Positions 8,126-14,539 of a DNA stretch of 41,587 bases are shown piece by piece (position 1 is the first letter of the stretch; the number at the start of each line of letters is the position of its first letter). The translations under genes were made by a program, and so were the position numbers. The stretch comes from an uncultured Bacteroidota bacterium. Lineage in GTDB: Bacteria > Bacteroidota > Bacteroidia > 2-12-FULL-35-15. The notes beneath the pieces are model-generated. The model was not told where the DNA came from. It saw nothing but the letters and a program-made list of their open reading frames with translations, and searched no databases. The DNA lies in contig CAIXIP010000012.1 of assembly GCA_903919535.1 (NCBI GenBank), positions 1 to 41,587 on the forward strand, read 5' to 3'.

Positions 8126-9436
8126 TTATATCAATAGGTAATGAATTAAGCCGAACAATGAACTTATTCCAATCCACAAGATTATATTTAATTTAAAACG
8201 ATAAATTGCAATAAAAGAAATCACAACCCATAGCGTTGAAATAATATCCATTCCTTCAATAGAAATAGTTGCAGGAAAAACTACTGCTTTGCCAAGATAG
8301 ATTGTAAGATTCAACACTACACCCACAACAGCTGCTGTTACCAGTCCGAGGATTTGTTTCACTGTTTTGTTTTCCTGCGTTCTTTCGATGATTGGAGCGC
8401 CAATAAAAATAAAAAAGAAACAAGGTAGAAAAGTATAAAATGTAGTAGTAACAAGCCCAAGAGTTCCCATCAATAAAGAATTTCCATAATGATTATGCCC
8501 AGCCATAAAACCAACGTATGCAAGCACCATAATCAATGGCCCAGGAGTTGTTTCACCTAAAGCAAGTCCATCAATCATCTGCAAATTTGTTAGCCAATGT
8601 AATTTTTCAACACTAAACTGTGCAACGTAAGGCAATACCGCATATGCACCTCCAAAAGTAACGAATGCTGCTTTTGTAAAAAAAACTGAAAGAGTTTTCC
8701 AAAACTCAAAATCTTTAATAAAAAAATAAAATAGTAACAATGGAATTACCCACAATCCAGAAGCTATAATTACTTGTTTCAAAAAACGGGCGAGTCGAAA
8801 ACCACTATCTGGATTAACTGTATTTCTATTCAAAAAATAGTCATCTTCAATTATAGATTTTTGTTCAGTTTTTTTTCTTTTTGAATCGAAAACTTCTGGA
8901 ATTAATTTCCGAGTAATTGCTGCAACAATAATGGCTCCGATAATTATAAGCGGGAATGGAATATTAAAAAAGAAAATGCAAACAAAAGCTGCAATGGCAA
9001 CAAAATAATGAAAGGAACTTAACAATGATTTTTTACCTATTTTGAACAACGCCAGAATAACAATAGCAATCACAGCTGGTTTTAAGCCATCAAACATTGC
9101 ATAAATCCATGGTATATTTCCAAACGTAACATAAACAAAACTTAAACCAAGCAGAATAAACATTGAAGGTAGCACAAAGAGAATCCCCGCTAAAAAACCA
9201 CCGAGCCTTCCATGTAACAACCATCCGATATATGTTGCAAGCTGCTGCGCTTCAGGCCCCGGCAATATCATACAATAACTGAGTGCATGAAAAAACTTGC
9301 TGTCGCTTATCCATTTTTTTTGTTGAACAAGATATTCGTGCATAATTGCAATTTGTCCTGCAGGCCCCCCGAAGCTAATAAAGCCAAGTTTAATCCAAAA
9401 CTTTAATGCGTCTTTTAGTGAAGGTTTTTGTGGCAT
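8126..9436 (-). CDS. chrA: Chromate-efflux family transporter (ChrA, two CHR domains)
   Basis: Inner-membrane protein of the CHR superfamily, whose characterised members export chromate; some relatives transport other anions. Both halves are present. The N-terminal CHR domain has FISFGGPAGQIAIMHEYLV and ILPGPEAQQLATYIGW; the C-terminal half has FVTFGGAYAVLPYVAQF and LGETTPGPLIMVLAYVGF. This makes it a full-length 'long' CHR transporter. The start is taken as ATG 9436 (436 residues). A GTG at 9448 is also possible and would overlap the photolyase stop by 4 nt. It is last in a four-gene minus-strand run behind the ATPase, lipocalin and photolyase genes. No chrB-type regulator is visible, so a resistance role is not established. 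Confidence 0.92.
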   Translation of the reverse strand: MPQKPSLKDALKFWIKLGFISFGGPAGQIAIMHEYLVQQKKWISDSKFFHALSYCMILPGPEAQQLATYIGWLLHGRLGGFLAGILFVLPSMFILLGLSFVYVTFGNIPWIYAMFDGLKPAVIAIVILALFKIGKKSLLSSFHYFVAIAAFVCIFFFNIPFPLIIIGAIIVAAITRKLIPEVFDSKRKKTEQKSIIEDDYFLNRNTVNPDSGFRLARFLKQVIIASGLWVIPLLLFYFFIKDFEFWKTLSVFFTKAAFVTFGGAYAVLPYVAQFSVEKLHWLTNLQMIDGLALGETTPGPLIMVLAYVGFMAGHNHYGNSLLMGTLGLVTTTFYTFLPCFFFIFIGAPIIERTQENKTVKQILGLVTAAVVGVVLNLTIYLGKAVVFPATISIEGMDIISTLWVVISFIAIYRFKLNIILWIGISSLFGLIHYLLI

Positions 9437-9444
9437 AAATTTGA

Positions 9445-10755
9445 TCACTGTGTTAATGCTTTTTTAAAAACTTCCAATACGCGTTTGCGCGCATAATCAT
9501 GCTCAACAATTGGTGACAAATAATCGGGATTAAAATTTTTGATCCATTTTTTTATGTAAATCAAATCTTTATCGAATTTTTTCAATTGTTCTGATGGATT
9601 AAAAACTCTGAAATAAGGAGCTGCATCACAACCGCAACCAGCTGCCCATTGCCAATTCCCGTTATTGGAAGAAAGTTCATAATCGAGAAGCTTTTCTGCA
9701 AAATACGCTTCCCCCCAACGCCAATCGATCAATAAGTGTTTTGTCAAAAAACTTGCAACAACCATTCGCACACGGTTATGCATTAAACCTGTTTCATTTA
9801 ACTCGCGCATTCCTGCATCAACCATTGGATATCCCGTTTCCCCTTTACACCATAAATCAAACTCTGCTTCATTATTTCTCCAAGGAATATTGTCGTATTT
9901 CTTTTTAAAACTTCTTTCAATAACATATGGAAAATGAAAAAGTATCATCATAAAAAATTCTCTCCAAATAAGTTCATTCAACCACTGCTCATTTAGTTCA
10001 CTTGCTTTTTTGACAAGCGATCTGACACTTATTGTTCCGAATCGTAAATGAACGCTCATTTTACTGGTTCCATTAATAGCTGGAAAATTTCGTGTTTGAT
10101 CGTAATTACGAATTATTTTTTCATCAATTTTTATAGACGGAAAAGTTGATTTTATGTTTTCAAAACCAATATCATTCAAAGAAGGAAAAGGAAAAGGTTT
10201 TGTTTTATGGAGACGATTCAATAAGCTTTCACTAGTAAATAATTCAATTTTTTGTTCCTTAAGCTTTTGTTTCCAGATCTTCGAATATGGAGTAAAAATA
10301 GTATATGGTGTTCCATCAGATTTCATCACTTCTGATTTTTCAAAAATAACCTGATCTTTAAATGAATGAAATAAAATATTTTTTGTTTTTAGAAATTCTG
10401 AAATTTTTAGATCGCGGTCTATTGAAAATGGTTCATAATCATGATTGCAAAACACTTCCTTAATATTAAAGTTTTTGCAAATCTTTTCAAAAACATTTAT
10501 AGGTTCATCATGCGACACAAAAAGAGACGAACCAAAATTTATTAGCTCCTTATTTAATTGCCCTATCGTTTGATGAATGAATGCAACACGTTTGTCCTTT
10601 TTTTCAGATAGGTTGCCAAGAATGTTTTTATCAAAAATAAAAACAGGAAGCACATTATCCGATTTTTTCAATGCTTCACAAAACCCATGGTTATCATCTA
10701 ATCGAAGATCTCTCCGAAACCAGAAAACTGTAATTTGTTTTTTAGTATTACTCAA
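9445..10755 (-). CDS. phrB: Deoxyribodipyrimidine photolyase (cryptochrome/photolyase family)
   Basis: Light-dependent repair of cyclobutane pyrimidine dimers is the expected role. The N-terminal antenna domain opens with VFWFRRDLRLDDN. The FAD domain carries WREFFMMILFHFP, GYPMVDAGMRELNETG, HNRVRMVVASFLTKHLLIDW and NGNWQWAAGCGCDAAPYFR, all diagnostic of class I photolyases. At 436 residues the length is normal. The start codon must be TTG at 10755: between the upstream in-frame stop and the conserved domain there is no ATG or GTG. The TTG overlaps the lipocalin stop region (8-nt overlap), suggesting translational coupling. Confidence 0.95.
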   Translation of the reverse strand: MSNTKKQITVFWFRRDLRLDDNHGFCEALKKSDNVLPVFIFDKNILGNLSEKKDKRVAFIHQTIGQLNKELINFGSSLFVSHDEPINVFEKICKNFNIKEVFCNHDYEPFSIDRDLKISEFLKTKNILFHSFKDQVIFEKSEVMKSDGTPYTIFTPYSKIWKQKLKEQKIELFTSESLLNRLHKTKPFPFPSLNDIGFENIKSTFPSIKIDEKIIRNYDQTRNFPAINGTSKMSVHLRFGTISVRSLVKKASELNEQWLNELIWREFFMMILFHFPYVIERSFKKKYDNIPWRNNEAEFDLWCKGETGYPMVDAGMRELNETGLMHNRVRMVVASFLTKHLLIDWRWGEAYFAEKLLDYELSSNNGNWQWAAGCGCDAAPYFRVFNPSEQLKKFDKDLIYIKKWIKNFNPDYLSPIVEHDYARKRVLEVFKKALTQ

Positions 10756-11275
10756 TTTGTGGAGTTTTTTGAAGCTTACTTATATCGAACCCTTTTTCTT
10801 TTAAACGAGAAATAATTAGTTGATAAACACTTTCATCCATTTTGGGAGAGCGAGAAAGTATCCATAAATATTTTTTGTTTGGATGACTAACTACAGCAAA
10901 ACTATAATCTCCGGCCAGATCAATTATCCAATATTTTGCTTTGAAAGGCCAAAAAAATTGAACTTTCAACTTTGCATTTCCAGAATTTTTCTCAACAAAC
11001 GCTTTCCCTTTGATATAAGCTTGTTTTCCTGTAATACTATTTTTATTGCATCTGTTCTCAACAATAACATATCCTTTTTCACTCATAGTATACTCGGCTG
11101 TAGTGCAATGACAACCTTTTTGAAAGGTTTGAGGATAAGAGGCAATTTCATACCACTTACCTAAATATTTATTTAAATCAACAGAAGAAACAGTTTGTAA
11201 GGTTTGAGATTTAATATTAGTAGTTGTCATGATAATTAATATTATTACTAGTTTAAAGTGTTTGTAGCTATTCAT
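10748..11275 (-). CDS. blc: Exported lipocalin of the Blc/apolipoprotein D type
   Basis: Bacterial lipocalins bind lipids or other hydrophobic ligands at the cell envelope. The product has 175 residues. Residues 9-19 form a hydrophobic export signal, followed by the lipocalin signature LGKWYEIASYPQTFQKGC (Gly39, Trp41) and the conserved FWPFKAKYWIIDLAGDYSFAVV and LWILSRSP strands. There is no clear lipobox Cys after the hydrophobic segment, so unlike E. coli Blc it is probably not lipid-anchored. It overlaps the photolyase by 8 nt and begins 30 bp after the ATPase stop. I recall Blc next to photolyase in other genomes, which suggests a shared stress response, but nothing here proves that. Confidence 0.93.
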   Translation of the reverse strand: MNSYKHFKLVIILIIMTTTNIKSQTLQTVSSVDLNKYLGKWYEIASYPQTFQKGCHCTTAEYTMSEKGYVIVENRCNKNSITGKQAYIKGKAFVEKNSGNAKLKVQFFWPFKAKYWIIDLAGDYSFAVVSHPNKKYLWILSRSPKMDESVYQLIISRLKEKGFDISKLQKTPQIE

Positions 11276-11305: not shown

Positions 11306-13915
11306 TTAATTTCCAAGTTTAAACCCCAAACTACTTCCCTTTGCACGTTGATTTTCTATAATAAATTCTTTTACATCACTTAAAACTAAGGTTTGCAAGT
11401 GTTCTAAAGTTCTTTCAGTTGAAGTCATTTCTGCTAATCGCAAATTTTGATTTTTAACCGCTTCAGCAACAACTTGTCTAACAGTTCTTGCATTACCAAA
11501 ATGTTTATCTCGATTAGTATAAATAAGATTGAAATATTCTTTTAAGTGTTCTTCTGCTTCTGTGTTAGGTGTAATTTTTTCTTTTGCAAGAATTGAAAGT
11601 GCTATCAAATACATTTCATCCGCTGAATAATCTAGGAACTGAAATGTTCTGTCAAATCTGGATTTTAAACCTGGATTTGATTCAACAAATTCATGCATAT
11701 TATCAGGATAACCAGCTACAATAACACCAAACTGTCCGCGCAGATCTTCCATACGTTTTAAAATTACCTGTATTGCTTCTTGCCCAAAATCATTTCCAAC
11801 ACTCTTATTCGCTAAAGCATATGCTTCATCAATAAATAATATTCCACCTTGCGATTCATCAACTTTTTCTCCAGTTTTAATTGCCGTTTGCCCAACCCAA
11901 CCTGCAACTAATTCTTCTCGGTCAACTTCCACAACATGACCTCGTTCCAACAAACCAAGCCCCTTATATATTTTCGCAACTATGCGTGCAACGGTAGTTT
12001 TCCCTGTCCCCGGATTTCCTGTAAAGATACTATGTAATGAAAACTTATTCAATACATCCCTTCCTGTTTCTTTATAAAAACGAACTAATTTCACCAACTC
12101 ATTGATCTCTTCTTTGATGTTGTTCATTCCTGTAAGAGCATTCAACTCAGCTAACCCTTCTTTTAATAGTTTTTCATTTACATCTAGCTTCAATTTCTTT
12201 TTACCACGGCCTTCAAATACCTTTTCAAAATCGACAAGCTCAATTGTTGAAAGAATTTCGTTTGATAATTCTGCCACATTTGATAGATTCATTAAGCGCA
12301 AACCCAGATTCATTTTAGCTTCATCGATGATTGAATAAACAAACCGTGCATTCCCAAATGCCTTATCTCGGTTCCGATAAGCCTCAATCAACATCTCATC
12401 TAAAAACATTTTTGCTTCAGAAGTAATCGTTACTCCTTTTTTCTTACTCGCCAAATCTGCGATTAATAACATTTCTTCCGGTAAATAATCTTCAAATTGG
12501 AAATACTGACTGAAGCGAGATTTTAAGCCAGGGTTTGAATCAATGAAACTTTGCATCTCTTTCGGGTAGCCTGCACACATAATAGCAATGTCACCAGTCC
12601 CATCGCTCATCTCTTTCAGTAATATTTCCAACACTTCCTGTCCGAAATCATTCGAATCTTCCTTTGCTCGAGTTAATGAATATGCCTCATCAATAAATAA
12701 AATTCCTCCTTTAGCTTCTTCTATTATTTTTTTTACTTTGGGAGCTGTTTGTCCGATGTATTGAGCCACCAGATCAGAACGATCAACTTCTTTCACATGA
12801 CCTTTTGAAAGCAATCCCATTTTGTTATATAATCGGCCTAACATATTTACTACAGAAGTTTTCCCTGTTCCCGGGTTTCCTGTAAAAATGCTATGAAGAT
12901 TTATTTTTCCAGCATCATCAAAACCTTTTTCTTTTCTTAGTTTAATAAAATTGATATAATTAATATGGTTTCGAATATTCTTTTTCACTTCATCCAACCC
13001 AATCAATTCATCAAGTTTAGCCAGTAATTGTTCAATGGTTTCTTCATTCACAATATCATTAATAACAGTTGACTGCACATTTGTTTGTTCTGCAATAGAA
13101 AATGGCTGCAAAACACCTTCTTCGCTTGTTTCACTCATTTCAAAGGGAAGCAACGCAACCAAAGTATCCATAAAAACAATTTCTACTGTATACTTATCAT
13201 CCTTCCAGGTACCTGCGGATTCGCTCCCCCAAGCCCCTTCAAACGTAAAAATTAATTCCTGACTTCCCTTTTCGATAAAACCTGTTCGTATACTTTGCCC
13301 TTTAGGTTGACCTGCATCATCACAAAAATTAAAGAAAAATTCGTAGTTCCAATCTTGATTGGTTTTAGTCTTAATTTTGAACTCTACCCATAAATATGGC
13401 GTCTCATTGCGATTGAGTTTTTTGAAATACGTTCTATCCTTAATGTTCCACCCGTCAAAAGGGCCAGGATATAATTTAACAGACTCAACGGTAAAATATG
13501 GATTCGATATGGTTGAGACTTTTCCAACATCTTCCACAAAATATTTTTTTGAGCCCACCAACTCCCCATCAATATATGCCTCCCATAAATACCCCCCCTT
13601 AAACCAATAGGCTCCCTCGTTAGGAGTTCCCCATCCATCTCTCACAAACACAACATTTTCATCCATTTTTATTTCACGTGAAGATTCCAAACAACATAAT
13701 TCGGTTCGCGCATTTCCAATCAATGAAAAAGCTTTGAGAGTAATTTTCGCATTCCAATCCTGCTCGTCAAATAACTTATTGTAAAATGAAAATTCGGTCC
13801 GCAAATAGGTTGTTTCCATCCTATCAAAAACAGTACGATATTTTTTAGTTGAATTTGCCATCCATTCATCTGAGGAATAGACCTTCATTTCCTTGAACTT
13901 ATATTTTTGTGACAT
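11306..13915 (-). CDS. Double AAA+ ATPase (CbbX/SpoVK-type) with duplicated N-terminal beta-domain
   Basis: 869 residues. Residues about 10-130 and 140-260 are two copies of a beta-rich domain: TTYLRTEFSFYN and QDWN in the first pair with TPYLWVEFKIKT and QDWN in the second, and GWGTPNEGAYW pairs with AWGSESAGTW. Two AAA+ modules follow. Module 1 has Walker A GNPGTGKT 346-353, Walker B GILFIDEAY 404-412, NPGLKSRF 461-468 and GNAR 521-524. Module 2 has the same motifs at 633-640, 691-699, 747-754 and 807-810. Both look catalytically intact. The family includes CbbX (Rubisco activase), SpoVK and EccA, so a protein-remodelling ATPase is likely. There is no signal peptide, hence cytoplasmic. The target is unknown. 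It is first in the run with lipocalin, photolyase and ChrA. Confidence 0.9.
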   Translation of the reverse strand: MSQKYKFKEMKVYSSDEWMANSTKKYRTVFDRMETTYLRTEFSFYNKLFDEQDWNAKITLKAFSLIGNARTELCCLESSREIKMDENVVFVRDGWGTPNEGAYWFKGGYLWEAYIDGELVGSKKYFVEDVGKVSTISNPYFTVESVKLYPGPFDGWNIKDRTYFKKLNRNETPYLWVEFKIKTKTNQDWNYEFFFNFCDDAGQPKGQSIRTGFIEKGSQELIFTFEGAWGSESAGTWKDDKYTVEIVFMDTLVALLPFEMSETSEEGVLQPFSIAEQTNVQSTVINDIVNEETIEQLLAKLDELIGLDEVKKNIRNHINYINFIKLRKEKGFDDAGKINLHSIFTGNPGTGKTSVVNMLGRLYNKMGLLSKGHVKEVDRSDLVAQYIGQTAPKVKKIIEEAKGGILFIDEAYSLTRAKEDSNDFGQEVLEILLKEMSDGTGDIAIMCAGYPKEMQSFIDSNPGLKSRFSQYFQFEDYLPEEMLLIADLASKKKGVTITSEAKMFLDEMLIEAYRNRDKAFGNARFVYSIIDEAKMNLGLRLMNLSNVAELSNEILSTIELVDFEKVFEGRGKKKLKLDVNEKLLKEGLAELNALTGMNNIKEEINELVKLVRFYKETGRDVLNKFSLHSIFTGNPGTGKTTVARIVAKIYKGLGLLERGHVVEVDREELVAGWVGQTAIKTGEKVDESQGGILFIDEAYALANKSVGNDFGQEAIQVILKRMEDLRGQFGVIVAGYPDNMHEFVESNPGLKSRFDRTFQFLDYSADEMYLIALSILAKEKITPNTEAEEHLKEYFNLIYTNRDKHFGNARTVRQVVAEAVKNQNLRLAEMTSTERTLEHLQTLVLSDVKEFIIENQRAKGSSLGFKLGN

Positions 13916-14149: not shown

Positions 14150-14539
14150 TTAATAATTGCCTTGGGCAATAGCTGGTAATGAAGGATTTGTTGTTGACCC
14201 TTCTTTAAATAATACGTTATCGATATAAATTTGTACTTGAACAACTTTATGAGATGGAGCTACATTTGAAGCTTCAACCGAAAATAAATGCCCTGAACTA
14301 AAATTAAAATTCACGACTGATGAAGTCCTGGTCATCGTTTCAGATTGCATTTCCATAACACCACTTGTGTTAGGAGCCAAATAATTTACGTTTACATTAC
14401 CTGACTCACACTGAATACGATATTCTACATTAATTGTTTTTGGAGCAATTGGATCTTGAGGAGTAAGCTTCTCCTCTTTTTTACAAGAAGTAGTGAAAAC
14501 ACTTACTAATACAACAAAAGAAAGGAGTAATTTCTTCAT
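14150..14539 (-). CDS. Small exported lipoprotein, unknown function
   Basis: 129 residues. Lys-Lys followed by a hydrophobic run and the lipobox TTSC gives a lipoprotein signal peptide with Cys19 as the lipidation site. KKEE directly after the Cys resembles the charged export signal of surface-exposed Bacteroidota lipoproteins, though this is inferential. The mature part is a short, Thr/Ser/Asn-rich, beta-strand-rich domain with no motif I recognise; the pattern (VQVQIYIDNVLFKEG) is compatible with a small beta-sandwich. It has its own promoter (14570-14577 with a -33 element) and terminator (14076-14104), so it is monocistronic. Confidence 0.75.
   Translation of the reverse strand: MKKLLLSFVVLVSVFTTSCKKEEKLTPQDPIAPKTINVEYRIQCESGNVNVNYLAPNTSGVMEMQSETMTRTSSVVNFNFSSGHLFSVEASNVAPSHKVVQVQIYIDNVLFKEGSTTNPSLPAIAQGNY

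Follow-up and report, generated by a model that had tools for sequence, protein, structure and literature searches.

Analysis of one gene from an uncultured Bacteroidota bacterium points to a motor protein with an architecture of its own. The gene lies in the window, which is the whole 41,587-nucleotide stretch of DNA that was analyzed, and its product is referred to here as the beta-AAA protein. The sequence suggests a double-ring threading unfoldase with a beta-sandwich receptor at the N-terminus and C-terminal tails that may dock onto the peptidase ClpP, and we give this combined reading close to an even chance of being correct. Membership in the SpoVK/CbbX/EccA clade of AAA+ proteins is clear from the sequence. 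The clade is known; for the protein's architecture, beta-domain, and tail, no description was found in the open-access literature. The beta-AAA protein is a widespread yet unstudied bacterial molecular motor. Its most informative feature is the invariant tail, which the original prediction missed.

Gene and domain organization

The gene had been placed at 11306-13915, which is exact; its strand is minus, and many stop codons interrupt the plus strand there. The frame is 100% open. It is the sole copy of its kind in the genome, which has no other AAA_lid_6 protein. The features of the gene and its product are as follows.

11306-13915, minus: whole gene (reading frame), 869-residue protein with the layout beta1-beta2-linker-AAA1-AAA2-tail
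13526-13906, minus: beta-sandwich domain 1, residues 4-130 (hhalign and AlphaFold2 model)
13133-13504, minus: second beta-sandwich domain, residues 138-261, a homologue of the first (hhalign E 2e-25, AlphaFold2)
13055-13132, minus: flexible linker between the beta-domains and AAA1, residues 262-287 (low pLDDT at 274-290)
12221-13054, minus: first AAA+ module and its lid, residues 288-565 (PF00004 and PF17866; bounds from the module tree)
12857-12880, minus: Walker A motif GNPGTGKT in module 1, residues 346-353 (invariant in 24 two-AAA rows)
12752-12760, minus: pore loop Y-I-G in module 1, residues 386-388 (all 69 two-module proteins have aromatic-x-G here)
11366-12184, minus: second AAA+ module and its lid, residues 578-850 (PF00004 and PF17866; bounds from the module tree)
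11996-12019, minus: Walker A motif GNPGTGKT in module 2, residues 633-640 (invariant, 28 of 28)
11891-11899, minus: pore loop W-V-G in module 2, residues 673-675 (first residue Y, F, or W in 28 of 28 rows)
11330-11365, minus: variable C-terminal linker, residues 851-862 (unconserved; pLDDT <50 from 856)
11321-11329, minus: L-G-F, residues 863-865, the invariant motif of the tail and a proposed docking tripeptide for ClpP ([LIVMF]-G-[FY] conservation)

The N-terminus is a tandem beta-sandwich

The N-terminus consists of two copies of one beta-rich domain, as originally predicted. In the window protein alone the repeat signal is significant but modest: direct alignment scores 65, while shuffled sequences average 30.5 (SD 5.0, maximum 53 of 500). 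With 30 relatives included, hhalign matches copy 1 to copy 2 over 118 columns with a probability of 99.7% and E 2e-25, and an HMM of copy 1 recovers copy 2 in every relative. The AlphaFold2 model of this region (mean pLDDT 88.6, pTM 0.82) has two separate, consecutive beta domains, not one single domain, and the strand order is the same in both. The strands run from E5-13 to E118-128 in domain 1 and from E141-151 to E251-261 in domain 2. The repeat was first drawn at residues 10-130 and 140-260; it is real, and its bounds are corrected to about 4-130 and 138-261.

Pfam places the N-terminus in no characterized family: for the window protein it returns just the two AAA plus AAA_lid_6 modules, and for a set of 28 beta-domains it gives no family beyond scattered chance hits. 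One relative shows weak similarity to DUF3859 (E 0.0024, below the family cut-off). A search of PDB sequences with the beta-domains found no match, and Foldseek returned solely generic tandems of the Ig, FnIII, or arrestin-like kind at a TM of about 0.3. On these two results a known fold family was ruled out, and because the TM is low we claim the general fold alone and draw no function from it. N-terminal domains in the SpoVK/CbbX/EccA clade have been proposed to recruit substrates (PMC10659427), and a role of the beta-domains as a substrate receptor would fit that proposal. The same paper mentions some CbbX-like proteins with a beta-prism N-terminus.

The beta-domain also occurs without an ATPase, as a pair or singly. 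The proteins concerned either start with a signal-like N-terminus (278 and 661 residues) or are small (153-224 residues). Secreted proteins with two beta-domains include those of 278 residues with a signal-like N-terminus (L084, L085, and L087) and one of 661 residues (L086). The genes of the ATPase-free proteins are located as follows.

L084:9475-10311, L085:8526-9362, L087:37-873, L086:8113-10098, L137:9637-10311, L138:9620-10081: ATPase-free beta-domain proteins

The beta-domain is therefore a general module and not one confined to AAA+ proteins. Whether or not ClpP is involved, the family would define a new receptor domain, a tandem beta-sandwich that some secreted proteins share.

The AAA+ modules belong to the SpoVK/CbbX/EccA clade

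The assignment of both AAA+ modules to the CbbX/SpoVK type holds, and so does the observation that they repeat each other. PF00004 and PF17866 are found twice, and the NCBIfam matches are to SpoVK, CbbX, and EccA. Aligned with each other, the modules reach a score of 609, while no shuffled alignment exceeds 66, and the motifs GNPGTGKT and NPGLKSRF are identical between them. Features of the clade are GY in sensor 1, a sensor-2 arginine, and a criterion based on an asparagine (PMC10659427). AGYP is present in each module, with AGY in 69 of 69 two-module proteins for module 1 and 67 of 69 for module 2. The sensor-2 (second) arginine finger is found in FGNAR, which is invariant in both modules. 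In NPGLKSRF the asparagine is kept and an invariant arginine follows, by our count six residues on; position +4 is mostly lysine, and the paper may count a different arginine. Walker A, Walker B, AGY, SRF, the sensor-2 arginine, and the aromatic-x-G pore loops are kept in both modules of nearly all two-AAA members.

An identity as SpoVK, CbbX, or EccA was rejected, as every equivalog cut-off is missed per module. The SpoVK model TIGR02881 has a single-domain cut-off of 422.95 bits; the modules alone score 246 and 241, and the whole protein reaches 473.5 bits because the two modules add up. Scores against the CbbX model TIGR02880 (cut-off 459.25 bits) are 422 for the whole protein and 224 and 207 per module. 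The EccA model TIGR03922 (cut-off 466.65 bits), which has a TPR N-terminus, gives 398 with the AAA part alone matched. The window protein thus resembles the clade in its homologous AAA modules (about 39% identity to CbbX over one module), sensor 1 GY, sensor-2 arginine, AAA_lid_6, and variable N-terminal recruiting domain. It differs in having two AAA modules per chain instead of one, a tandem beta-sandwich N-terminus, a [LIVMF]-G-[FY] tail, and modules that score below the cut-offs. Relatives with solved structures are CbbX (3syk, 3zuh) and EccA1 (9lur).

The AAA duplication is ancestral

Full-length relatives are spread over many families of the class, and at least one family outside the class has them too. 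A match to module 2 at E 1e-25 or better is present in 118 of 396 genomes from the class, mostly in proteins of 860-940 residues with two modules. The beta-domain is also found in one-AAA proteins of about 600 residues (L052, L053, L054, and L075) and in proteins of about 1300 residues with a TPR N-terminus and three AAA modules (families f62, f80, and f91). These three-AAA proteins, which come from other Bacteroidota families (L088, L121, L130, and others), share a homologous beta-domain and modules 1 and 2 with the window protein. However, they have the TPR N-terminus, a single beta copy, a third module, and no GF tail, and ABC transporter genes often adjoin them.

In a tree of the modules, module 1 of the two-AAA proteins groups with module 1 of the three-AAA family (support 100/98), and module 2 groups with module 2 (99/98). 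The position of CbbX beside module 1 was disregarded, as it is a single long-branch outgroup. The module-by-module pairing indicates that the AAA duplication is ancestral and older than the split from the three-AAA family, and a recent duplication inside the window protein is ruled out. The one-AAA proteins correspond to module 2 and fall at two separate positions inside the two-AAA clade, indicating that module 1 was lost at least twice. The "double duplication" described earlier is too simple, and one specific to the window protein is unsupported: its AAA part predates the three-AAA split, and some relatives have one AAA module. The studied members of the clade have a single AAA module each, and the family is an old branch with several. 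Two three-AAA members (L122:7701-9995 and L089:8332-12177) have a degenerate module 2 or 3, with long branches and lost Walker motifs, or a missing module, showing that ring modules decay repeatedly.

The C-terminal tail may dock onto ClpP

All 42 non-redundant members with one or two AAA modules have [LIVMF]-G-F within their last 20 residues, compared to 7 of 462 other proteins of the same loci (about 1.5%). No second tripeptide of this kind occurs anywhere in 41 of these 42 proteins. Members that were fetched after the motif had been noticed carry it as well (32 of 32; 31 GF and 1 GY), and none of 19 three-AAA relatives does. In total 75 proteins have the motif, with a linker of 9-21 residues (mode 12) before it and 0-8 residues following it. 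The linker after the module-2 lid is unconserved and is predicted by AlphaFold2 to be disordered, with pLDDT <50 at 856-869. The tail sits on module 2, which is the module retained by the one-AAA versions. One of the one-AAA relatives (L055:8335-9375, minus) has an N-terminal membrane helix, no beta-domain, and the C-terminal sequence LIGYTN, and it is possibly a membrane-anchored version with the same docking motif. The motif is absent from a different protein of the CbbX clade (L185).

ClpX carries IGF loops, and ClpA and ClpC carry IGL or VGF loops, for docking onto ClpP. These known Clp motifs are located in an internal loop and not on a C-terminal tail. In HslU, PAN, and other ATPases, a motif at the flexible C-terminus below the last AAA ring docks the peptidase. 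The window protein differs from the latter in that its motif is not HbYX and need not form the final residues (0-8 follow). In the proposed mechanism it would work like the Clp/HSP100 proteins ClpX, ClpA, and ClpC, with N-terminal recruiting domains, aromatic-x-G pore loops, and a ClpP tripeptide on the last ring. It is not an HSP100 protein, however, and its tripeptide is on a C-terminal tail instead of a loop. The Clp C-terminal small domain (ClpB_D2-small, PF10431) matches three other genes in the genome and misses the beta-AAA gene. Clp ATPases dock into hydrophobic pockets of ClpP via the tripeptide (L/I/V)-G-(F/L) (PMC8745299), and LGF at residues 863-865 fits this pattern, though on a tail.

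The same genome has one clear ClpP, an adjoining ClpX, ClpC, and ClpB. At the docking-loop position, identified by eye from known Clp loops, ClpC has VGF, ClpX has VGY, and ClpB has no such tripeptide. Other ClpX proteins have IGF or VGF where this one (L147) has VGY, suggesting that tyrosine is tolerated as the aromatic residue in this group. A clpP gene was detected with TIGR00493 in 38 of 40 genomes tested. One of the two misses is a genome that is 82% complete. The other, G073, is 99% complete; it was set aside as a counterexample, since both of its congeners carry clpP and an assembly gap is probable. Almost all of these bacteria have ClpP, so this co-occurrence is weak evidence and amounts to a failure to refute. 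No clpP gene is present within any of the fetched beta-AAA loci.

In the mechanism that we propose, the protein would be a cytosolic unfoldase of the SpoVK/CbbX/EccA clade that, by analogy with its family, forms a hexameric double ring. The tandem beta-sandwiches on the N-terminal face would catch a particular protein, and the two stacked rings, with intact catalytic motifs and pore loops, would thread it. Flexible tails ending in [LIVMF]-G-[FY] would dock the lower ring onto ClpP, akin to the loops of ClpX, ClpA, and ClpC, and the substrate would be passed into ClpP and degraded. Threading is well supported by the motifs. Docking by the tails is nearly as probable as not: the motif is exact, specific to the architecture, and at the position of a docking tail, yet the key claim hangs on just three residues, and so short a motif could bind something else. 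That the protein founds a new class of ClpP-dependent motor, with a twin ring, a tandem beta-sandwich, and tail-recruited ClpP, and so equips many Bacteroidota with one more Clp protease in addition to ClpXP and ClpCP, is a tentative reading that we put somewhat below an even chance. If the tails do dock ClpP, there would be degradative machines inside a clade described as having no peptidase link, an unrecognized Clp protease would exist across many families of Bacteroidota, and the partners of ClpP would extend past HSP100 proteins.

The main rival is a dedicated, non-proteolytic remodeling chaperone, a real possibility that we rate as rather less than even. Here the beta-sandwiches would recruit an assembly or enzyme, the rings would tug on it and so activate or disassemble it, and the tail would bind some partner that is not ClpP. 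Every member of the clade studied so far is a dedicated remodeler, with analogues in CbbX and Rubisco, SpoVK and MurG, and EccA and ESX substrates, and no association with a peptidase has been found in the clade (PMC10659427). The similarity of the individual modules to these three proteins and the variable contexts of an orphan gene also agree with remodeling. Remodeling does not explain why a tripeptide of the ClpP type is invariant on a disordered tail and confined to one- and two-AAA members. An improbable reading is that the tail regulates the rings of an unfoldase without ClpP, as a latch within or between subunits or as a grip for an unrelated adaptor. A short, hydrophobic motif on a flexible linker would suit such a role, but the linker length and the residues past the motif vary freely, and a tight internal latch would restrict them more. 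The motif is also a close fit to the known ClpP tripeptide, including Y variants that match VGY of the genome's ClpX.

Gene neighborhood

Conservation of the genes around the beta-AAA gene stops at the genus and a few closely related families, and an operon partner was ruled out, as no neighbor cluster tracks the gene past its near relatives. No Rubisco or ESX gene was recognized nearby, in agreement with the original prediction. Its view of the gene as a candidate for an undescribed system was overstated, since this is an orphan gene across many Bacteroidota without a partner gene that travels with it. A phage or plasmid origin was also rejected; the N-terminus is unmatched in phage records, plasmids, and viral contigs.

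The three-AAA relatives show a different arrangement. At 8 of 20 loci (L121, L122, L124, L126, L133, L135, L136, and L139; families f62 and f80), the gene is followed, within tens of bases and in the same direction, by genes for an ABC ATPase and a PF16949 permease. The neighbors are otherwise different between the f62 and f80 loci, and it is likely that the three-AAA protein, the ABC ATPase, and the permease form a functional unit of their own. By extension of this gene order, the beta-AAA protein might serve an ABC exporter. This is very improbable, as the two-AAA members do not have such a neighbor and the type of PF16949 permease found at the three-AAA loci is unmatched in the window's genome.

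Directly downstream of the beta-AAA gene in the window are three minus-strand genes encoding a lipocalin (10748-11275), a photolyase-like protein (9445-10755), and a ChrA-like transporter (8126-9448). These genes (8126-11275) overlap or are 30 bases apart in an operon-like arrangement, and most relatives do not have this gene order. Just upstream is a gene for a 129-residue lipoprotein-like protein (14150-14539, minus), which among the near relatives examined is kept in just three loci (the window, L002, and L006).
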